Part shown: one piece after another, positions 5,897 to 41,897 of the stretch
How positions within the stretch are numbered: the first letter of the stretch is position 1
Layout of the letters: the number at the start of each line of letters is the position of its first letter
Assembly (NCBI GenBank): GCA_009787015.1
Contig: WRGU01000048.1
Coordinates: 1 to 41,897, forward strand
Length of the DNA stretch: 41,897 nucleotides
Source: Candidatus Saccharimonadota bacterium
GTDB taxonomy: Bacteria; Patescibacteriota; Saccharimonadia; Saccharimonadales; Saccharimonadaceae
Reading direction: 5' to 3'
Position numbers and translations under genes: made by a program
Notes under the pieces: model-generated
The model's input: the letters and a program-made list of their open reading frames with translations, nothing else
Database searches by the model: none
Told to the model about the DNA's origin: nothing

Positions 5897-6709
5897 ATGG
5901 CAATACGAGATACCGTAATAAAATCCGTGTTTTGGATGTTCAAAATACGATTGCTCATGGCTGTGATTTTTGCGGTCGCGCTCATAGGGCTATTGGTCGT
6001 GATCGCTTCTCCTCGCAACCATTCAATTAGTAACCAAAATATTGTGGAAACGAAAAAGAGCACCTTCAACGAAATGCTAGGCAATTGGAGTATATACAAC
6101 AAAAAAACCGTGCAAAAATGCACGAAAGTCACAGGATTTATACCTCAAAAATGCCATGAATACCAAGATACTTATGTTTGGACACTAAAATTTAACGATT
6201 CCGACGGATCTGAAATTTTTTGCGATTTTGAGTCAGATTACAGCAGTGATAAAGGTTTTTATGACGATATGAAAAGGTGCAACGAAAACGTTGCAGCAAG
6301 ATTAGTAAGCAAATCAACAAACGGACGTGGCACTGAATTAATTATAAACTATGACATACAAAAAGATAAAGATCTTTACCCAAAAAATTTGACTTTCGAC
6401 ACTCTTGTGCGTAAAAAAATGATTAAAAAAATCAGCGCCAACATAAAAAGCGACGATTTCGGAGATTACCTAGACGAATATTTATATTGGCGATCGAGAA
6501 CCGCTGAAAATGCAAACATAAGCGTAGGGATCTCCGGTTGTTATGCTGACGGTCAGTGTAATAATTATATTATACAATCTAGCACTGACTTCTCAATTAC
6601 AGCGTACAGCAAAAATGTAAAAAGTAACGCCAGCAGCAAGAAAAGCGATGGCGACAGACCTAATATGATAATTTTAGACAGTTACCTCGACCTCGAAAAG
6701 TTGCGCTAA
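5897..6709 (+). CDS. Membrane-anchored protein of unknown function
   Basis: The 270-residue product has one N-terminal membrane helix (LLMAVIFAVALIGLLVVIAS) after a short basic segment, so most of it should lie outside the membrane. The rest is polar and Lys/Asn-rich, with scattered Cys (VQKCTKVTGFIPQKCHEY, ISGCYADGQCNNY) that could form disulfides. Codon use is visibly AT-rich (many AAA, ATA) compared with the recA group, suggesting different origin. The family is not recognised. A CAGAAT lies 6 nt before the ATG, a weak candidate leaderless -10. Confidence 0.7.
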   Translation: MAIRDTVIKSVFWMFKIRLLMAVIFAVALIGLLVVIASPRNHSISNQNIVETKKSTFNEMLGNWSIYNKKTVQKCTKVTGFIPQKCHEYQDTYVWTLKFNDSDGSEIFCDFESDYSSDKGFYDDMKRCNENVAARLVSKSTNGRGTELIINYDIQKDKDLYPKNLTFDTLVRKKMIKKISANIKSDDFGDYLDEYLYWRSRTAENANISVGISGCYADGQCNNYIIQSSTDFSITAYSKNVKSNASSKKSDGDRPNMIILDSYLDLEKLR

Positions 6710-6715
6710 AATCGC

Positions 6716-6748
6716 ATCTTGCTACAAAGACGGTCTTTGTAGCAAGAT
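6716..6748. terminator. 16-bp perfect hairpin after the membrane protein gene (copy 1 of a pair)
   Basis: ATCTTGCTACAAAGAC at 6716-6731 is perfectly complementary to 6733-6748. It lies 6 nt after the stop codon. A poor T-stretch follows (CATTTTACTC), so termination is plausible but not certain. A near copy sits after the next gene. Confidence 0.65.
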
Positions 6749-6804: not shown

Positions 6805-7635
6805 ATGAGCAATTTTGAGGTGTCCCCCCCCCGATTCGAACAGCATGTCGCGGCGACTGATATTGATCGCGATAAGGAAATCAAAGTTCAGATCTGGAAC
6901 GACCAAAAAACCGTGCATTACGACAGCAGCAACCGACCCGGTTATTTCGCGGGTCGAACATACGCCGACATGATGGCGCACCTGTTTCCCGATGAGTTTG
7001 ATTTTTCCGGAACAGTTTCGAAAAGCAGCGGGCTGAGCCTGACCGAATTGTGGCGAGAACAAGCAACGCACGAAAACGTCCGTCGACGCAATGTTATGGA
7101 TCAGAATTACGCACCGCCGTATTTCGGCGGTTACAACCGCATGATGGCGGACGGCAATAATATTTTGAGTATTGGTTGCGGACCGGCAACCGGCGAAGCG
7201 CGACTGTCCATCCTACACCCCGAATTATCAGTCATGGGTATCGACATCGCCATTCGCGAACGCAACAAATTCGTCATTGGCGCGAAAGGCTTGCAAATGG
7301 CGTGCGGTGATGCCGGAAACATGCGCAACCTATTGCCCGACAATTCGATCGACGGTATTATCGAATCCCAATCCGCGACAGCCTGGACACTGGACGAAAA
7401 AGAATTGCGCAAACAAGCACGCGAAAAAAGCCGTGTGGCGAAAATTGGCGCAGTTATGCGAATAACCTGTATGCTCGATGACGACATAGTTCGCGCAAAA
7501 CAACAGATGAAACGTTATTATGGTTTTGAATCAACACTCAAAGGCATGGGGTGGGCGACCGAACTTGTCGCGCTTCATGATCCTGGCGAATATAACCTCA
7601 GTTGCGTCATGATCGCCGCCGAAAAACAACGTTAA
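6805..7635 (+). CDS. Class I SAM-dependent methyltransferase, substrate unknown
   Basis: The 276-residue product has a SAM-binding motif I ILSIGCGPATGEAR (about residues 120-133), a motif II acidic end VMGIDIA, a motif III region MACGDAGNMRNLLPDNSIDGIIESQSAT, and a C-terminal strand typical of a Rossmann methyltransferase. The N-terminal 100 residues are unusual and may recognise substrate. A nine-C run at 6824-6832 lies in codons 7-10 (VSPPR), so a one-base slip would abolish the protein. The gene is flanked by two near-identical hairpins and has its own leaderless promoter. No neighbour suggests a substrate. Confidence 0.8.
   Translation: MSNFEVSPPRFEQHVAATDIDRDKEIKVQIWNDQKTVHYDSSNRPGYFAGRTYADMMAHLFPDEFDFSGTVSKSSGLSLTELWREQATHENVRRRNVMDQNYAPPYFGGYNRMMADGNNILSIGCGPATGEARLSILHPELSVMGIDIAIRERNKFVIGAKGLQMACGDAGNMRNLLPDNSIDGIIESQSATAWTLDEKELRKQAREKSRVAKIGAVMRITCMLDDDIVRAKQQMKRYYGFESTLKGMGWATELVALHDPGEYNLSCVMIAAEKQR
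6824..6832 (+). repeat. Nine-base C tract at the start of the methyltransferase gene
   Basis: Nine consecutive C within codons 7-10. As read, the frame is open. Confidence 0.85.
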
Positions 7636-7641
7636 ACGACC

Positions 7642-7674
7642 CTTTTGCTACAAAGACAGTCTTTGTAGCAAAGG
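7642..7674. terminator. Hairpin between convergent genes (copy 2 of a pair)
   Basis: TTTGCTACAAAGAC at 7644-7657 pairs perfectly with 7659-7672, one base between the arms, and pairing extends by a wobble and a C-G pair. The core is the same as the hairpin at 6716-6748. It separates the methyltransferase stop from the convergent PRC-barrel gene, so it may work as a bidirectional terminator. Confidence 0.65.
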
Positions 7675-26336: not shown

Positions 26337-27307
26337 TATCTTTTTCCTCTCAAAAAACGGCATGGCGCAGAGATAAACTGACCGATTCTGTAACTTTTAG
26401 AACTTAGGATCGCGGTAATTATTTCGTCTTTTTCTTTATTGGCTCGCTCTAAATCGCGTGCATACTCGTTCAAATCATTAACCCCGCTCGCGATACAGTA
26501 AAATTCCTGTGCCCGTAATCTGTTAATATAATTCACATCAAAGTTAACACCGTACGTCCTGGCGACAAATTTCATAGCCATATCAAATAAATCTGTATAC
26601 GCCATCTTCTCGCCACATACATCAATCCGCCCAGTAAGCGCCTTGCTCATGGTTGAGTCGTGACCGACGCGATAGTTGTATAGAGTTTCGTCAATCACGG
26701 CTAATTTTTCTCCCGCCGCTACCAACAACTGCGGTATAATAAAATTATCTTCTAATATATTCGTTTTTACTACAGAATAGTCTACCGCGTCAAACAGATT
26801 CCTGCTAAACAATTTACATGGCGTCGTTTGTGCTAGTATGCGAGTTTCCGCCATGCGGTAATGTTCAAAGAAAAATTTTGCGTCATTTTCAACAATCTTG
26901 CTATTGTCGTGTATTCTTGCTTTAGGCTTATCTGTGGACATCCTCAAGCCGCAAAGGGCAACTTTAACGTTGTGTTCGATGATTGCGTTGTACATTTTTT
27001 CGACATAGGTTCTATCAACCGTATCGTCCGAGTCGACAAAACACACGTATTTGCTCCTGCTGGCGGCGACGCCGTTCTTTCGCGCCGTACTAGTTCCTTT
27101 ATTCTTCTGTTTAACAATCTTAACCCTTGGATCTCTTTTCTCATATTCGCGCAATATCTCATTACTTTTATCCGTCGACCCATCATTGACGCAAATTATT
27201 TCTATATCTTTGAACGTCTGCGCCAGCACCGAATCTAAACACTCGCCCAAAAATTTTTCCGAATTATAGATGGGGATTATGACGGAAACCAATGGCTCGT
27301 TCTTCAT
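26336..27307 (-). CDS. Glycosyltransferase family 2
   Basis: The 323-residue product begins VSVIIPIYNSEKFLGECLDSVLAQTFKDIEII and has the metal site YVCFVDSDDTVD. The C-terminus SSKSYRIGQFISAPCRFLRG is the short basic tail often closing such enzymes. It starts at ATGA overlapping the stop of the upstream AAA/DUF4143 gene, so its translation is coupled to a gene not obviously linked to glycan synthesis. Confidence 0.92.
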   Translation of the reverse strand: MKNEPLVSVIIPIYNSEKFLGECLDSVLAQTFKDIEIICVNDGSTDKSNEILREYEKRDPRVKIVKQKNKGTSTARKNGVAASRSKYVCFVDSDDTVDRTYVEKMYNAIIEHNVKVALCGLRMSTDKPKARIHDNSKIVENDAKFFFEHYRMAETRILAQTTPCKLFSRNLFDAVDYSVVKTNILEDNFIIPQLLVAAGEKLAVIDETLYNYRVGHDSTMSKALTGRIDVCGEKMAYTDLFDMAMKFVARTYGVNFDVNYINRLRAQEFYCIASGVNDLNEYARDLERANKEKDEIITAILSSKSYRIGQFISAPCRFLRGKR

Positions 27308-28509
27308 TTTGCCACCCCGCCCAGCAACCAATCAATCGCATTAACCTGTTTTATCCCATCAAAATTGTTATTTTCAGGATCGAGCGTCAATAAAAACTTC
27401 GGGTTATTATCGCCAAGTTTTTTAAGTGGAGTTAATTCTCGCGCCAATACACTTTCGTCTCTAACTGTTAATGCAACTTGGTAATATTCCACACTGCCAT
27501 CGGCGACCTTGACCATGAAATCGATTTCGTTGCTGTCGTTTTTTCCGACCCAAACATCATCGTATCGACGTTTTAATTCTAAAAATACGACATTTTCCAA
27601 AATTCGACCATAATCCGTCACAACGCTACCCGCGAGCAACGAACGAATGCCGACATCAACCAGATAATATTTAACCTGGGTTTTAAGGATTCTTTTTCCT
27701 TTGATATCGAAACGTTGCGCAGGATAGATCACAAAACTCTCCGCCAGTGCTGTTAAATACCTATCAATCGTAAAGCTCGACACAGGACGACCATTGCTCG
27801 TCAAATAATCGGAAATACCTTTGGCGGTCGTATAATTTCCGATGTTATCCATCAAATATTTCAATAAATCCGCCAAAATACTGTCGTTTTTGATATCGTA
27901 ACGCGCCACAACGTCCTTGTATACAACCGTGTCCAACACTGATTTAATGTATTCGCGCACCGATTCCGGATTTGTTTTGAAAAAATCGACTGCTTGCGGA
28001 AACGATCCGAATTCAATGTAGTTTTGATACGATACCGGTATATCCGGCTCTTCGAACGCCGATAGGTATTCAGAAAACGAATACGGCAGCATTTTAATCC
28101 GCACATATCGACCAGACAGATATGTCGCGAGATCCGAACTCAGAAAATATGCGTTCGATCCGGTTATATATAGATCAATATTTTCCCTCGTAAACAGACT
28201 GTCGACCATTTTTTGAAAATTCGGAATATTTTGAACCTCGTCGAGAAAAACGTAGTGCATTTGGTCGTTGGTTATTTTTGACATAATAAAATCGTGCGCC
28301 TTGACCGCGTCCAATAAATCCTGGTTCGCCATATCTTCAAAATTTAGGTAAATAATATGATCACCATCAACGCCACCGTTTTTGAGTTTATCAATAAAGA
28401 GTCTCAAGATCGTCGATTTGCCGCAACGGCGAATTCCGGTGATCACCTTGATTATTTGTTTGTCCCTATATTGATCGAGTTTATCCAAATATTTTGCACG
28501 ATTTATCAT
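27304..28509 (-). CDS. AAA family ATPase with DUF4143 domain
   Basis: The 401-residue product has an N-terminal AAA_14-type P-loop domain (Walker A GIRRCGKST, Walker B HYVFLDEVQN, sensor LYITGSNAYFLSSDLATYLSGR) and a C-terminal DUF4143 domain with a nuclease-like fold pattern (GRILENVVFLELKRRYDDVWVGKNDSNEIDFMVKVADGSVEYYQVALTV; compare E-x-DF). Such proteins are widespread in small genomes and mobile regions; function is not established. A strong leaderless promoter (28516-28544) drives it, and it overlaps the downstream GT2 gene by 4 nt, so it probably drives that part of the glycan cluster. Confidence 0.9.
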   Translation of the reverse strand: MINRAKYLDKLDQYRDKQIIKVITGIRRCGKSTILRLFIDKLKNGGVDGDHIIYLNFEDMANQDLLDAVKAHDFIMSKITNDQMHYVFLDEVQNIPNFQKMVDSLFTRENIDLYITGSNAYFLSSDLATYLSGRYVRIKMLPYSFSEYLSAFEEPDIPVSYQNYIEFGSFPQAVDFFKTNPESVREYIKSVLDTVVYKDVVARYDIKNDSILADLLKYLMDNIGNYTTAKGISDYLTSNGRPVSSFTIDRYLTALAESFVIYPAQRFDIKGKRILKTQVKYYLVDVGIRSLLAGSVVTDYGRILENVVFLELKRRYDDVWVGKNDSNEIDFMVKVADGSVEYYQVALTVRDESVLARELTPLKKLGDNNPKFLLTLDPENNNFDGIKQVNAIDWLLGGVAK

Positions 28510-28515
28510 GAAACC

Positions 28516-28544
28516 ATTTTACCGAATCGACATGTTTATGTCAA
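28516..28544 (-). promoter_or_regulatory. Consensus leaderless promoter of the AAA/DUF4143 gene
   Basis: Minus strand TTGACA at 28539-28544, 17 nt, TAAAAT at 28516-28521, GGTTTC, ATG at 28509. Confidence 0.8.
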
Positions 28545-28595
28545 GTTTTTTAAGTCCACTTAAAAAACTTTGGGGAATCGGAAGTTTTTTAAGTG
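28543..28595. repeat. 13-bp perfect palindrome and a third half-copy, upstream of the AAA/DUF4143 promoter
   Basis: AAGTTTTTTAAGT (28543-28555) and its inverse complement (28558-28570) are 2 nt apart. The half-site appears again as AAGTTTTTTAAGT near 28582. The dyad touches the -35 of the promoter, so it might be an operator. Confidence 0.7.
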
Positions 28596-28608
28596 AAAAT
28601 GGGTTTCC

Positions 28609-28646
28609 ATTATCAAAACTTATCAAAAATCGTAAGTTTTGATAAT
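28609..28646. repeat. 14-bp perfect hairpin, left copy of a flanking direct repeat
   Basis: ATTATCAAAACTTA and its inverse complement are separated by 10 nt. The right arm with loop (AAAAATCGTAAGTTTTGATAATAG) recurs in the same orientation near 29472-29495. Confidence 0.75.
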
Positions 28647-28683
28647 AGGAATGGGTGTTATCGCACAGTTCGCTCGCACTCTA

Positions 28684-28713
28684 TTGACACGCGATCATAA
28701 CGTATGATACAAT
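28684..28713 (+). promoter_or_regulatory. Promoter of the candidate structured RNA
   Basis: TTGACA at 28684-28689, 18 nt, TACAAT at 28708-28713 on the plus strand. No protein start follows. Confidence 0.7.
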
Positions 28714-28719
28714 CGAATC

Positions 28720-28799
28720 ACAAATGAAGCCAGTCCCGAACTGTCACCGGATGGTGTGCGTGTCTAGGACAACTAGAATAGGGGCTGGTTTCGGCTTTT
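28720..28799 (+). ncRNA. Candidate small structured RNA, about 80 nt
   Basis: Downstream of a good promoter, GAAGCCAGTCCC (28726-28737) pairs with GGGGCTGGTTTC (28781-28792) over 12 bp including two G-U pairs. It encloses two small hairpins: CACC-GGAT-GGTG (28745-28756) and TCTAG-GACAA-CTAGA (28763-28777), making a three-way junction. A CGGCTTTTA end could terminate it. No ORF is contained. It does not match tmRNA, SRP, RNase P or a riboswitch class that I know. It runs convergent to the DUF3800 gene and meets its stop codon. Confidence 0.55.
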
Positions 28800-29415
28800 A
28801 TTGGAAGTACCACAAATCATCTATGTGGTCTTTTATTATTCTCAAATAGTCACCACGATCTTTTTTGGTTTTGTCGGCTGATCGATGAATTGAACCGGCT
28901 ATAAGGTCGGCAAGTTGGATAAGCAAATTATTTCTAGAATCAACAAACCGAATGCGGGTAATTTTATGCCCGCCAACATTAACTTCTTTGCGCAGATAGG
29001 CTGCGGCAGACCGCTTATATTCGCGCCCAGCGTGCCCATCCAAACGGATATCAGCGTCCTTTAGGTCAGATTTCGCCAGCACCTGTTTGATTATATAGTT
29101 ATAAAACGATTCTTTTCTGGTTTTTAACTCTCGACTATAAATTTTTAACTTATCAACACATATAGCACGAACACGAAAATCGATGCGACAAACTTCCTCT
29201 AAAACCTCTTTGATTTTTAACTTGTTCGTTTTATTAAACTTGAACTCACTGCCTTCTTTCCAGCCGACCTTCTGCCGATACTTTTTCATTATCAGAGCCG
29301 CTTCTTCAGCTTCTAGTTTGTCGTTGAAAATTACGCAGGCAATAACAAAATGGCTGCTCGAACCTTTGTCTAACTTAAACCCAGGATCACCAGAATCATC
29401 TAGAAAAACCAACAT
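28798..29415 (-). CDS. DUF3800 protein
   Basis: The 205-residue product has the DUF3800 hallmarks: MLVFLDDSGDPGF at the N-terminus, FKFNKTN in the middle, LDGHAGREYKR, and the C-terminal IRFVDSRNNLLIQLADLIAGSIHR with the final Gln-x-x-Asp. This acidic layout is shared with RNase H-like folds and these proteins often occur with mobile or defence genes; activity is not established. It has an extended -10 (TGCTAAAAT) 6 nt before ATG. Together with the candidate RNA it is flanked by direct hairpin repeats. Confidence 0.88.
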   Translation of the reverse strand: MLVFLDDSGDPGFKLDKGSSSHFVIACVIFNDKLEAEEAALIMKKYRQKVGWKEGSEFKFNKTNKLKIKEVLEEVCRIDFRVRAICVDKLKIYSRELKTRKESFYNYIIKQVLAKSDLKDADIRLDGHAGREYKRSAAAYLRKEVNVGGHKITRIRFVDSRNNLLIQLADLIAGSIHRSADKTKKDRGDYLRIIKDHIDDLWYFQ

Positions 29416-29421
29416 GTGGAT

Positions 29422-29430
29422 ATTTTAGCA
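29422..29430 (-). promoter_or_regulatory. Extended -10, leaderless, of the DUF3800 gene
   Basis: Minus strand TGCTAAAAT, ATCCAC, ATG. No clear -35. Confidence 0.6.
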
Positions 29431-29451
29431 TAAAACTAAAATTGGAGGGAT

Positions 29452-29496
29452 TCCTATTACTAAAAGTAGCAAAAAATCGTAAGTTTTGATAATAGA
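29452..29496. repeat. Right copy of the flanking hairpin repeat
   Basis: CTATTACTAAAAGTA and TAAGTTTTGATAATAG form an imperfect hairpin with loop GCAAAAAATCG. Its right half matches the repeat at 28609-28648 in direct orientation over about 24 nt. Confidence 0.7.
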
Positions 29497-29521
29497 AAGG
29501 CGCAAAAAGCGGATTTATTTC

Positions 29522-31468
29522 TTATTCTCTGGTGATGATTTTCTTTAATTCTCGTAATGGTTTTGTGATTTTCCAGGATTTAGAATTAAGCATGTTGCCG
29601 ATTTGGGCATCCATCAAACGGAGTCTTGCGTATAAATCACCCACCTGATTGTTTATTGCATGACCTCTTTGCAACCACAGTATCAGCACTATTTGCATAC
29701 TTACTAGCCAGTTAATATATTCTTTGCTGAATTTCACTTTGCGCGGTTTCTGTTTGTCTATGTCCGCGAACAAATTTTTGACGACTACGTCTATCGAATA
29801 ATCCTTAACGGAGGTTTTGCGATGTTTTTTGTGAAATTCCAGCGCATTAAGATAGCCTTTTACTATTTCGTCCGAGATCACGCCAGCCTTTTTGCGACCG
29901 AAACCGCGTCCGGAGAAATTGCGGCGTTTGGCATCGTTAAAATTGTCCTCGTTGAGATAACCGCATCCGCCAAACCGACCGTAAATGTAAACTGGTACGC
30001 CGGACATTAGCGAGTAATTAACGTTTTTGCCGATCCCAATAATCAAATCGTATTCGTTATAGAACTCTGCGTCGACGTGGCGTGCATTGTTATTGTATGC
30101 ACCGATATAGTCGACTTTTATCGCTTGCGATTCCAGACTTTTTGATATTTCGAGTATTTCCAGCGACGGCTGACTGCTGCTGATCACGGCGATTTTTCTC
30201 AATTTTCCACAACGTTCCGGCAGGTTTTTGAATTCTTTTGGAACCGGATTACGATAATATCCCACCGAACACTTGCCAAAAATTCTTGTTAAATTATCTT
30301 CTGTTGCTTCGTCGGAAATAGACAATATTTTCGTTGCGATTTCTTTTTCGAAATCCGGCAAAAGTGGCGCATCGAGGGGAAAACCCACGAGCGATGACAT
30401 GTGCAAAAATATGAATTTTGGCAATTTTTTGGCTGAATTAATTTGCTTAATTATCGAAATTGGCAAAATATTAGCATTAACCCATATATAATCATACCTC
30501 TCAATTTCGAGCTGAACGTTACCCAATTTTTCTTCCTCGGTAGCCAGCACGTTAATATCGTCAGTTATAATTTTCCAATCATATTTTTCGCGGACATATT
30601 GCGCCAACGGACCATCAATATCATAACTAAACAGTTCTGTGTCCACGCCGAAATCGTTTAATTGTTCCGCCAACTCTATTACATTCATTTCGGCGCCGCC
30701 AAATGCCGCCAGGCTGAAACTGGTGATTAGGATTCTTTTGCCCTTGAGATTTGTATTGCGATCCCCCATAAAAGTGTCGGGCGTGTCGAATCGCGTTATA
30801 TTAAAAATCTCCTCGTCGATTTTATAGTCGCGATATACCGGTTTGTACATACGTCGAGACGGTACTTTTTTTAGTTTCATGCCAATTTCATCGTCCAAGT
30901 AGTCGTAGCCGGCGTCGCCGTTCCACTTGCTCTTTGGGTCAAGTTTTTTATAGAGTTCTTTGCGATGTTTGCGTAGTTCCGGTTTGATGTGTTTAAGGTG
31001 ATAGACGTTTAAGCCGGTTTTAATTCTTTTACAGTCGTCGTTTACGGGACATCGCGGCTCGTGTAGTTTAACATCGGGATACACATTGTCAGGAAAAACT
31101 GAAAAGATCATTTCTCGCTTTTTCTCTCCCCATATACCATCAATTCTATAACTCGTCGGGGTGTACATTTCGCGAAAATTGAATTCAAATGACACTCTCT
31201 GACCATAATATTTTTCTAACAACTTTCGTATTTTAACAGCGGATTTTTTTTCTAATCTCTCGTCGGGATCGATCACCAGTATATAGTCGGCGCCAGCCTG
31301 TTCGGCTTGGCGGTACATTTCGGCGCGATATTCCCCAGCACCTTTCAAGAATATTCCTTTTTCGTCAAATTTTATAATTACTTCGTCGGCTATGTCTTTG
31401 ATATTTTCTTTCAAATCATCCAGGTAATCCCCGTCGTATTTATATGACACGGTTGCGATGACTTTCAT
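29522..31468 (-). CDS. Two-domain glycosyltransferase (GT2-like plus GT4-like)
   Basis: The 648-residue product starts with a GT2-like domain (MKVIATVSYKYDGDYLDDLKEN; DYILVIDPDERL; residues 1-215) followed by a GT4-like half (KRILITSFSLAAFGGAEMNVIELAEQL; residues 240-560) with a weak donor site (SLMSGVPVYIYGRFGGCGYL). The tail SKSWKITKPLRELKK is typical of polysaccharide glycosyltransferases. It overlaps the wzt stop by 4 nt, so it belongs to the ABC-exporter operon. Fusion suggests two successive sugar additions; the GT4-half may be degenerate. Confidence 0.85.
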   Translation of the reverse strand: MKVIATVSYKYDGDYLDDLKENIKDIADEVIIKFDEKGIFLKGAGEYRAEMYRQAEQAGADYILVIDPDERLEKKSAVKIRKLLEKYYGQRVSFEFNFREMYTPTSYRIDGIWGEKKREMIFSVFPDNVYPDVKLHEPRCPVNDDCKRIKTGLNVYHLKHIKPELRKHRKELYKKLDPKSKWNGDAGYDYLDDEIGMKLKKVPSRRMYKPVYRDYKIDEEIFNITRFDTPDTFMGDRNTNLKGKRILITSFSLAAFGGAEMNVIELAEQLNDFGVDTELFSYDIDGPLAQYVREKYDWKIITDDINVLATEEEKLGNVQLEIERYDYIWVNANILPISIIKQINSAKKLPKFIFLHMSSLVGFPLDAPLLPDFEKEIATKILSISDEATEDNLTRIFGKCSVGYYRNPVPKEFKNLPERCGKLRKIAVISSSQPSLEILEISKSLESQAIKVDYIGAYNNNARHVDAEFYNEYDLIIGIGKNVNYSLMSGVPVYIYGRFGGCGYLNEDNFNDAKRRNFSGRGFGRKKAGVISDEIVKGYLNALEFHKKHRKTSVKDYSIDVVVKNLFADIDKQKPRKVKFSKEYINWLVSMQIVLILWLQRGHAINNQVGDLYARLRLMDAQIGNMLNSKSWKITKPLRELKKIITRE

Positions 31469-39243: not shown

Positions 39244-40992
39244 TTATTTTACTATCATCCCGGACAATCGACGCGCCAATATCACGGCAACAGCAATAGT
39301 TGCCAGACCCGCCACCAATAACCCGCCGATTTGAACTACGCTCAATCCGGTGTTTGGCGGCGTGATGGGGTTGGTTGGTCTACAGGTGATTGTGTCAATC
39401 ACAATTTCGACGTTCTCGCCCACTACGCCATTCAACCCCACCATCGGCACAATCTCCGTGGTATTTCGGGTATAGGTTTTTGTGTACGTTAAACCATCTG
39501 CTTTCGTCCAACCATTCGGAATCACGATTGGAACATTGGTTTTTAGGGTTACTTTCACAGGATCGCAGCCCGTCGCACCGGCTGAACCGTTGGGAGTATC
39601 AGGTTCAATGAGTGGCGGCACCACAATAACCGGTTCGGAAGTGTCGAGGTATTTGACGATGATGAAGTCAGTGCTACCTTTATTTAGCCCAATCAGATCG
39701 CCGTCGGTGGATCTGGAATATCCTACCGCGACATAGCCGCCGTCGGGGGTGGGGGCGATGGAGAAAAATTCGTCACTGTCGCTCCCGCCGAAGTTTTTGT
39801 TCCATTCGAGGGTGCCAGTGGAACTGTATTTAGCGATGATGGCGTCCCGGTCTCCCTTATTTAGTCCAGTTAGATCGCCATCGGTGGAATAGGAACGCCC
39901 CGCTACGATATAGCCGCCGTCTGGAGTGGGGGCGATGGAATTAAAATTGTCATTGTAATTCCCGCCGAAGTTTTTATTCCATTCGAGGGTGCCAGTGGAA
40001 CTGTATTTAGCGATGATGGCGTCATAACCACCCTTATTTAGTCCAGTTAGATCGCTGTTGGTGGATTCGGAATTTCCCACTGCGATATAGCCGCCGTCCG
40101 GGGTGGGGGCGATGGAGTTAAAACCGTCACTGTCGCTTCCGCCGAAGTTTTTGTTCCATTCGATGACGCCAGAGGGGTCGTATTTAACGATAGTGGCGTC
40201 ATAGTCACCTTTATTTAGCCCAATTAGATCGCCGTTGGTGGAGTTGGAAAATCCTGTTGCGATATAGCCGCCGTCAGATACTTGAGCGATCGAGTAGAAG
40301 TACTCTACACGGCTCCCGCCGAAGTTTTTGTTCCATTCGATGACGCCAGAGGGGTCGTATTTAACGATAGTGGCGTCATAGTCACCTTTATTTAGTCCAG
40401 TTAGGTCGCCGTTGGTGGATCTGGAAAATCCTGTTGCGATATAGCCGCCGTCAGAGGTGATGGCGACAGACTGAAATTGATCCCAACTACTCCCGCCGAA
40501 GTTCTTGTTCCATTCGATTTCGCCGTTGGAGTCGTATTTGACGATGATAGCGTCATAGCTTCCTTTATTTAGCCCAGTTAGGTCGTCGTTGGTGGAGTTG
40601 GAACACCCCGCTACGATGTAGCCGCCGTCGGGGGTTTGAGCGATAGAATAGAAACGATCGTCACCGCTCCCGCCGAAGTTTTTATTCCATTCGGTAGCAC
40701 CAGCGGGATTATATTTAACGATGATGGCGTCATTACTACCTTTATTTAGTCCGGTTAGATCGCCATCGGTGGAATAGGAACTTCCTGCCGCAATATATCC
40801 GCCGTCGGAGGTGAGAATGATGGACTCAAAATTCTCGGCACTGCTTCCCCCAAAATTCTTATTCCACTGCAACACGACATTGTCACCCGCCACCGCCTGC
40901 GCGACGCCAAACATATTCAATAATCCGGCGAATCCGAGCATGCCAACTAACGCTACTGACGCAAACACTTTTTTGATATTTATCTTTGTCAT
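39244..40992 (-). CDS. Surface protein with seven 59-residue beta-propeller-like repeats and a C-terminal anchor
   Basis: The 582-residue product has a signal peptide (VFASVALVGMLGFAGLLNMF...AQA), then seven repeats of about 59 residues (177 bp) of the form NKNFGGS..D.F.SIA.TPDGGYIA.G.S.ST.GDLTGLNKG..DAIIVKY...G..EW, which suggests a seven-bladed propeller. A C-terminal beta domain follows (VTLKTNVPIVIPNGW) and then PPNTG, a membrane helix and RR, resembling a sortase-type or anchor signal. AAAGGG precedes the start, which overlaps the upstream stop (ATGA). Probably an adhesin-like surface protein; ligand unknown. Confidence 0.85.
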   Translation of the reverse strand: MTKINIKKVFASVALVGMLGFAGLLNMFGVAQAVAGDNVVLQWNKNFGGSSAENFESIILTSDGGYIAAGSSYSTDGDLTGLNKGSNDAIIVKYNPAGATEWNKNFGGSGDDRFYSIAQTPDGGYIVAGCSNSTNDDLTGLNKGSYDAIIVKYDSNGEIEWNKNFGGSSWDQFQSVAITSDGGYIATGFSRSTNGDLTGLNKGDYDATIVKYDPSGVIEWNKNFGGSRVEYFYSIAQVSDGGYIATGFSNSTNGDLIGLNKGDYDATIVKYDPSGVIEWNKNFGGSDSDGFNSIAPTPDGGYIAVGNSESTNSDLTGLNKGGYDAIIAKYSSTGTLEWNKNFGGNYNDNFNSIAPTPDGGYIVAGRSYSTDGDLTGLNKGDRDAIIAKYSSTGTLEWNKNFGGSDSDEFFSIAPTPDGGYVAVGYSRSTDGDLIGLNKGSTDFIIVKYLDTSEPVIVVPPLIEPDTPNGSAGATGCDPVKVTLKTNVPIVIPNGWTKADGLTYTKTYTRNTTEIVPMVGLNGVVGENVEIVIDTITCRPTNPITPPNTGLSVVQIGGLLVAGLATIAVAVILARRLSGMIVK

Positions 40993-41897
40993 TTCAAACC
41001 CTTTCTATTAATTTTGGTTTTGGGCGCCCAGAGCACCAATATCGCCGCCGCAGAAAGAACCGCTAATCCGAGCATCGACCAGCCGGCAAACCGAATTGCA
41101 CCGCCCAACCCAGAGCTAGGGGGGTCGACAGGGGGGATCGGCGGTGGCGGTGGGGTCGTATCCATGTATTTAATAAGAACAGCGTCGCCAAACATACCTT
41201 TGTCAAAACCACCAACTCCTGCCACGGCATATCCGCCATCGACAGTTACGGCGACCGACGTAAACGCGTCACCCTTGACACCGCCGTGCTTTCTTTTCCA
41301 CTCAACCGTGCCGTTGGAACTGAACTTGATAATAATCGCATCGCTGATATTTCCGATGTTCAACCCCACCAAATCGCCATCGGTTGATGAAGAACGCCCT
41401 GCCACAACATATCCACCATCAGCGGTTGAGGCGACCGAGTGGAAGTAATCATACCCGCTTCCACCGAAGTTTTTATTCCATTGCGGGATGCCAGTGGAGC
41501 TGAATTTGACAATGATAGCATCATCGTCACCCTTATTCAAACCCGTCAAATCGCCGTCGTCCGATTCGGAATATCCGACAGCCACAAACCCGCCGTCGGA
41601 AGCTAATGCAACCGAATTGAAGCTGTCGTACTCACTCCCGCCAAAATTTTTTGCCCACTGCAGAGTGCCAGTGGAGCTATATTTCGCAATGATAGCATCG
41701 CGGCTACCTTCGTTCAATCCAACCAAATCGTCGTCCGCGGAGTCGGAAGACCCTACAGCGACATATCCACCGTCGGGAGTTGAAGCGACCGAATAGAAAT
41801 AATCGTAGTCACTCCCGCCGAAGTTTTTTGCCCACTGCAGAACGCCGGTGGAACTATATTTGACGATGATAGCATCATAATCACCATTATTCAGTCC
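40989..41897 (-). CDS. Partial surface repeat protein, same repeat family
   Basis: The open frame runs off the right edge, so the first visible Met is not the start. Four repeats of the same 59-residue type are visible, the last diverged (EWKRKHGGVKGDAF). A Pro-rich linker, PPSSG, a membrane helix (FAGWSMLGLAVLSAAAILVL) and a basic tail (KTKINRKGLK) end the protein. It overlaps the downstream repeat-protein gene by 4 nt, so both are made from one operon. No start, signal peptide or repeat total can be given. Confidence 0.82.
   Translation of the reverse strand, partial: GLNNGDYDAIIVKYSSTGVLQWAKNFGGSDYDYFYSVASTPDGGYVAVGSSDSADDDLVGLNEGSRDAIIAKYSSTGTLQWAKNFGGSEYDSFNSVALASDGGFVAVGYSESDDGDLTGLNKGDDDAIIVKFSSTGIPQWNKNFGGSGYDYFHSVASTADGGYVVAGRSSSTDGDLVGLNIGNISDAIIIKFSSNGTVEWKRKHGGVKGDAFTSVAVTVDGGYAVAGVGGFDKGMFGDAVLIKYMDTTPPPPPIPPVDPPSSGLGGAIRFAGWSMLGLAVLSAAAILVLWAPKTKINRKGLK

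Follow-up and report, generated by a model that had tools for sequence, protein, structure and literature searches.

A DUF3800 gene and its convergent small RNA form a compact, apparently mobile unit, often enclosed by a direct duplication of the host DNA around it

We find that the DUF3800 gene of the stretch of DNA analysed here (the window, an entire contig of 41,897 bp from a genome of 0.86 Mb) and the small structured RNA that faces it are, as far as comparison of sequences can tell, the two halves of one horizontally mobile unit. As delimited by alignment, this unit measures about 0.73-0.95 kb and comprises a single DUF3800 gene together with a single DUF3800-IX RNA gene, which faces it and has a promoter of its own. 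Its mobility is argued for by the exactness with which the unit is shared among loci, by repeats at its flanks that are specific to each locus and by relatives in which a site of insertion is empty. The features of the window are collected in Table 1.

Table 1. The unit and its borders in the window
Feature	Position	Strand	Remarks
Flanking direct repeat, copy 1	28601..28651	.	Strong hairpin; read as duplicated target
Sigma-70-type promoter of the RNA	28684..28713	+	TTGACA-18-TACAAT, 11/12
DUF3800-IX small RNA (RF02968)	28727..28795	+	Three-way junction bearing two hairpins and closed by a long P1 stem
DUF3800 gene (PF12686)	28798..29415	-	Encodes 205 aa; fold predicted to be RNase HII-like; 3' end faces the RNA
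Flanking direct repeat, copy 2	29448..29498	.	One arm degraded, weak hairpin

An earlier note, made from the letters of the window, had pointed to a candidate RNA and a DUF3800 gene enclosed by a repeat, and both genes proved to be real. The RNA matches Rfam RF02968 over its full length (1-67) with 63.6 bits (gathering threshold 36.8; E 4.9e-13), the gene product matches Pfam PF12686 with 69.2 bits (cut-off 21; E 8e-19), and the two genes adjoin with their 3' ends facing. The genome has a single DUF3800-IX RNA; it also contains another, distant DUF3800 stretch, which is interrupted by stop codons. Among 86 relatives, 58 have at the 5' end of the RNA a -10 box that agrees in 5 or all 6 positions; the controls gave 13 and 8. 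The structure is well conserved: across 67 relatives 93.1% of the cells are paired, two-sided changes occur in 16 of the 20 pairs, and the three-way junction carries invariant loop and junction nucleotides, with a U-rich tail following the P1 stem. The covariation score of these 67 RNAs was 0.719, against 0.198 when shuffled and 0.146 at most in slid versions, in an alignment that was fitted to the structure and therefore favours it.

We collected further loci by protein alone. The query was an alignment of 15 DUF3800 proteins whose genes are linked to the RNA; it yielded 80 loci in genomes of bacteria and archaea and another 26 in viral contigs, most of the loci being metagenome bins. A covariance model built on 20 RNAs (matches taken at E < 0.005), the search that the earlier note had proposed, placed the RNA beside the DUF3800 gene in 76 of the 80 loci and in 18 of the 26 viral ones; Rfam added a 77th RNA-bearing locus (L065). 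Of these 76 RNAs, 75 face the gene and follow it immediately on its 3' side, the distance from the final DUF3800 codon to the 3' end of the RNA having a median of 22 nt (where measured). Two loci depart from this layout: at L111 gene and RNA share a strand, and at L034, a locus of the genome survey, the RNA lies upstream. Distances among the RNAs follow those among the proteins (Mantel r 0.74, reached in 0 of 2000 permutations), and together these comparisons show gene and RNA to be inherited as a pair, as read from their sequences.

So close a convergent arrangement, with a U-rich tail behind P1, might suggest that the RNA serves chiefly to regulate in cis: transcribed towards DUF3800, it would terminate transcription by its stem and tail and so limit read-through or expression of the gene, the pair being transferred passively. 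However, a conserved three-way junction with invariant nucleotides exceeds what a terminator needs, the RNA changes place or strand in L034 and L111, and some RNAs persist with no DUF3800 gene adjoining, so that we consider this explanation improbable. RNAs of the latter kind were seen at L028 (6857-6919), L041 (4363-4425), L031 (3760-3823) and L036 (6620-6688). No DUF3800 match exists anywhere in the genome that carries L041 (G066), and the RNA of L036 adjoins a 144-aa gene which is itself beside a SocA/Panacea antitoxin gene. Two units have two RNAs each, in tandem after DUF3800 at L102 (809-886 and 936-1013) and on either side of it at L068 (3816-3890 and 4654-4733). At L195 (G217:C2, 1414-1461) an RNA of another class, DUF3800-XI (RF02975), stands upstream of another DUF3800 gene and on the same strand, and therefore the layout varies among the classes of DUF3800 RNAs.

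The distribution of the unit is sporadic. It was present in 19 of 393 genomes of the class, the carriers in the window's own taxonomic family being Candidatus Saccharibacteria (L059 among them is the same record as G030:C27). The protein tree interleaves Patescibacteria with Actinomycetota and others, and the nearest relatives of the window protein belong to Moraniibacteriota (61% identity) and Bifidobacteriaceae; since this is a quick tree, drawn largely from metagenome bins, by itself it suggests transfer and does not prove it. The boundaries of the shared DNA are more telling. In 198 pairs of loci that have at least 650 nt of DNA in common, the shared stretch runs from the start codon of DUF3800 (median -1) to the 5' end of the RNA (median -2), 95% of them stopping within ca. 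32 nt beyond the latter. In 195 of these pairs nothing else within about 4 kb is common to the two loci, flanking sequence being shared in only 3, and units as similar as those of L049 and L050 (87% identity) or L074 and L122 (83%) have unrelated flanks. The comparison thus shows the unit, in the sequences at hand, at unrelated places in many phyla and inside phage contigs, where it lies near structural or lysis genes (terminase, head protease, endolysin). Its neighbours are mostly housekeeping genes and not defence islands. A search of annotated phage records gave no protein match, plasmids gave just distant DUF3800 proteins (24-30% identity), and among the genomes searched we found none with recent multiple copies, the genome of the window having one RNA.

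The repeats that enclose the unit in the window are 78% identical over 51 nt without gaps, and contain an exact core of 24 nt, AAAAATCGTAAGTTTTGATAATAG, at 28625-28648 and 29472-29495, much as the earlier note had described it. With up to 3 mismatches allowed, this core had 0 matches in 100 shuffles. The whole genome holds two exact copies of it, both bordering the unit, and one additional match, with 3 mismatches, to the 19-nt centre of the core.

Direct repeats at the flanks are a property of many units, and not of this one alone. Flanking repeats scored above every one of 595 mismatched-locus controls in 20 of 100 units. In a second comparison, 16 of 76 units had such repeats, whereas of 696 control windows obtained by sliding within each locus 7 had them (odds ratio 26, P 2e-12). 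Where both copies could be delimited they are 17-97 nt long; they differ from locus to locus and range from perfect to decayed, and most of them are not hairpins. A longer repeat, of 323 nt at L011, was counted with caution because it is within a repetitive FISUMP-like gene. Several of the duplicated pieces are clearly copied from neighbouring host genes, often from a gene end. In a Saccharibacteria genome it is a yvcK/CofD-family gene whose final 65 nt are repeated; at L090 it is a transglycosylase gene (3' end), at L100 the sequence immediately before lexA, and at L055 the start of recX. Inverted matches between flanks were not raised in general, with one unit scoring 42. About one fifth of the units thus have duplications above background; the other four-fifths would have lost them through decay or inserted by another route. 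These comparisons show, as a pattern in the sequence, that direct copies of nearby host DNA often enclose the unit, and the 51-nt repeats of the window match this pattern.

In the earlier note the repeats were hairpins at the borders of what looked like an inserted cassette. Copy 1 does fold strongly (-19.3 kcal/mol, z -9.8); the hairpin of copy 2 is weak (-7.3 kcal/mol, z -2.8) because one of its arms has diverged, which makes the description half correct. If the repeats were borne by the element, as hairpin termini that a recombinase recognises (for example attC-like sites, or the ends of a MITE or REP), the strength of copy 1 would follow. Yet each locus has a different repeat, mostly not a hairpin, and that of the window is absent elsewhere in its genome; this locus specificity contradicts element-borne ends, which we hold to be highly improbable. 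The repeats of the window would most simply be a target duplication that has started to decay, and not the end of an element, and the target itself most simply an intergenic hairpin between two genes. A DDE or IS-type transposon was also rejected, as there are no terminal inverted repeats or common ends and the duplication is neither short nor fixed in length; an integron cassette, as the flanking repeats are specific to each locus and offer no shared 3' recombination site (attC); and a MITE or REP hairpin family, as the genome has just the two flanking copies. The ends of the units, compared by eye, showed no terminal motif or conservation, and within the unit we found no transposase or recombinase.

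A divergent relative of the window unit (31% protein identity) is inserted between pth and dprA, and in six relatives this site is empty, with the two stop codons side by side. For the window unit itself the one other genome of the genus (70% complete) gave no match, so that the search for empty sites recommended in the earlier note succeeded for the related unit and not for that of the window. Since the RNA accompanies nearly all the DUF3800 genes collected and empty sites do exist for a related unit, neither of the two observations which that note had named as telling against its inserted cassette was made, and the inserted cassette is supported, its shared DNA being the gene and the RNA.

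On one side of the unit in the window is a large glycan-cluster gene (29522-31468) and on the other an AAA_14/DUF4143 ATPase gene (27304-28509), which stands between the unit and the next glycosyltransferase; glycosyltransferase, RgpF and ABC/Wzt genes are found farther away. The ATPase gene, on the minus strand, likewise interrupts the glycan cluster, and it matches the PADLOC phage-defence candidate PDC-S01 (E 1e-147). Directly upstream of it is a palindrome, AAGTTTTTTAAGT/ACTTAAAAAACTT (28543-28595), with similar copies on two more contigs of the genome (L174, G000:C41, ca. 1501-1551; L176, G000:C20, ca. 1501-1523), possibly an operator or a dispersed small inverted repeat. Elsewhere in the window a perfect hairpin, TTGCTACAAAGAC(G/A)GTCTTTGTAGCAA, occurs twice about 0.9 kb apart (6719-6745 and 7645-7671), near the ends of the plus-strand ORFs 5897-6709 and 6805-7635, and 177-nt tandem repeats span a coding region (39649-41893, a repeat protein).

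The DUF3800 protein was modelled with AlphaFold2 at a pLDDT of 92.3. The solved structure closest to the model in Foldseek is RNase HII of A. fulgidus (E 2.7e-5, TM 0.60, 15% identity), pointing to an RNase H-like fold; a search of PDB chains by sequence gave no match. The model agrees with the published view of DUF3800 as a nuclease of the RNase H fold (PMC10910872; PMC12669027). Four acidic residues (D6, E57, D126 and D170) are invariant in the alignment of the 15 RNA-linked relatives and would be compatible with a metal-dependent nuclease.

The mechanism that we put forward tentatively, giving it somewhat less than an even chance, is that DUF3800 as an RNase HII-fold nuclease and the RNA as its structural cofactor constitute a selfish, homing-like mobile ribonucleoprotein unit, of which the window holds one insertion. 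The protein, a putative nuclease, would be the active partner and the RNA would be bound to it; the pair may open DNA by widely spaced nicks, and a target duplication of variable length would be left when the break is repaired or captures the unit, the flanking hairpin of the window being then nothing but duplicated target. All that goes beyond a mobile unit in this mechanism we infer. We read the RNA as a structural cofactor because it has no single-stranded guide and does not match the flanks of its insertions: compared with its own flanks, with other loci as control, it gave no signal in ungapped identity or complementarity, the largest z of four tests of pairing being 2.15, not significant after four tests. 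For the same lack of excess identity or complementarity to adjacent sequence an OMEGA (IscB or TnpB) guide RNA was rejected. That we are dealing with an autonomous class of mobile ribonucleoproteins, in which an RNase HII-fold nuclease with a non-guide RNA nicks DNA at widely spaced points and brings about the insertion of its own 0.8-kb unit, so that conserved ends are not required and the duplications left behind are long and variable, is a more specific proposal and we consider it rather doubtful.

The main rival of a selfish element, in line with a role that the earlier note had raised as speculation, is a toxin-antitoxin or phage-defence module, in which an RNase H-fold effector is restrained or activated by the structured RNA. 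Such a module would spread by ordinary horizontal transfer, as a benefit to its host or by addiction, and illegitimate recombination of the host would both insert it and create the duplications. A nuclease-like fold with a strictly co-inherited RNA, a unit devoid of transposition machinery and the setting of the phage-contig units would all suit it, as would the accessory role of DUF3800 proteins in some class 2 CRISPR systems (PMC10910872; PMC12669027), and the weak matches of the unit, the only ones in PADLOC, to the phage-defence candidates PDC-M04A and PDC-S51. On the other hand, the neighbours are mainly housekeeping genes and not defence islands, orphan RNAs occur with no full DUF3800 gene adjoining (L028, L041), and a module alone does not explain the frequent long duplications at the flanks. 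The RNA, moreover, is downstream and convergent, unlike the upstream repeat array of type III toxin-antitoxin systems; the latter were rejected as a class, the RNA being usually single, with two tandem copies at L102. We regard a module as possible without being probable, and keep the selfish ribonucleoprotein as our preferred reading.

The RNA family, the protein family and their pairing are already catalogued. The pairing is not new: it gave the RNA family its name, and the Rfam 15 paper and a structure-prediction paper mention the link. In those portions of the DUF3800 literature that our search covered, we found no account of the mobility of the unit or of its duplications. DUF3800 RNAs are orphan structured RNAs beside nuclease-like genes, and orphan RNAs of like profile have earlier proved to be parts of RNA-guided nucleases. 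Once one such class is seen as half of a minimal transferable unit, with target duplications specific to each locus and with empty sites, its role can be put to the test as that of a mobile ribonucleoprotein.

Among known systems the nearest is the catalogued family itself. The RNA and gene of the window pass the curated cut-offs of RF02968 and PF12686 and stand side by side as in the family; the Rfam entry describes an RNA motif, to which the exact transferable unit, the flanking duplications and the empty sites are added here. IscB with its HEARO/omega RNA and TnpB with its reRNA are alike in being small mobile units that join a nuclease gene of the RNase H superfamily to an adjacent structured RNA. 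They differ in that DUF3800 is RNase HII-like, its RNA is ca. 70 nt long, convergent and with neither a visible guide nor a match to the flanks, and the unit has no IS ends or TnpA. The RAGATH-18 motifs, orphan RNAs from the same line of discovery, later proved to be nuclease guides (reRNAs; PMC11061315). Free-standing homing endonucleases resemble the unit as single small nuclease-like genes in intergenic positions, also near phage genes, whereas DUF3800 is nearly always accompanied by an RNA gene and often by long direct duplications, and its cleavage activity is predicted. RNase HII is the best match in fold, and the N-terminal D-(D/E)-S-G of DUF3800 resembles its D-E-A-G; however, the motif continues as GDPG in DUF3800 and as GRG in RNase HII.
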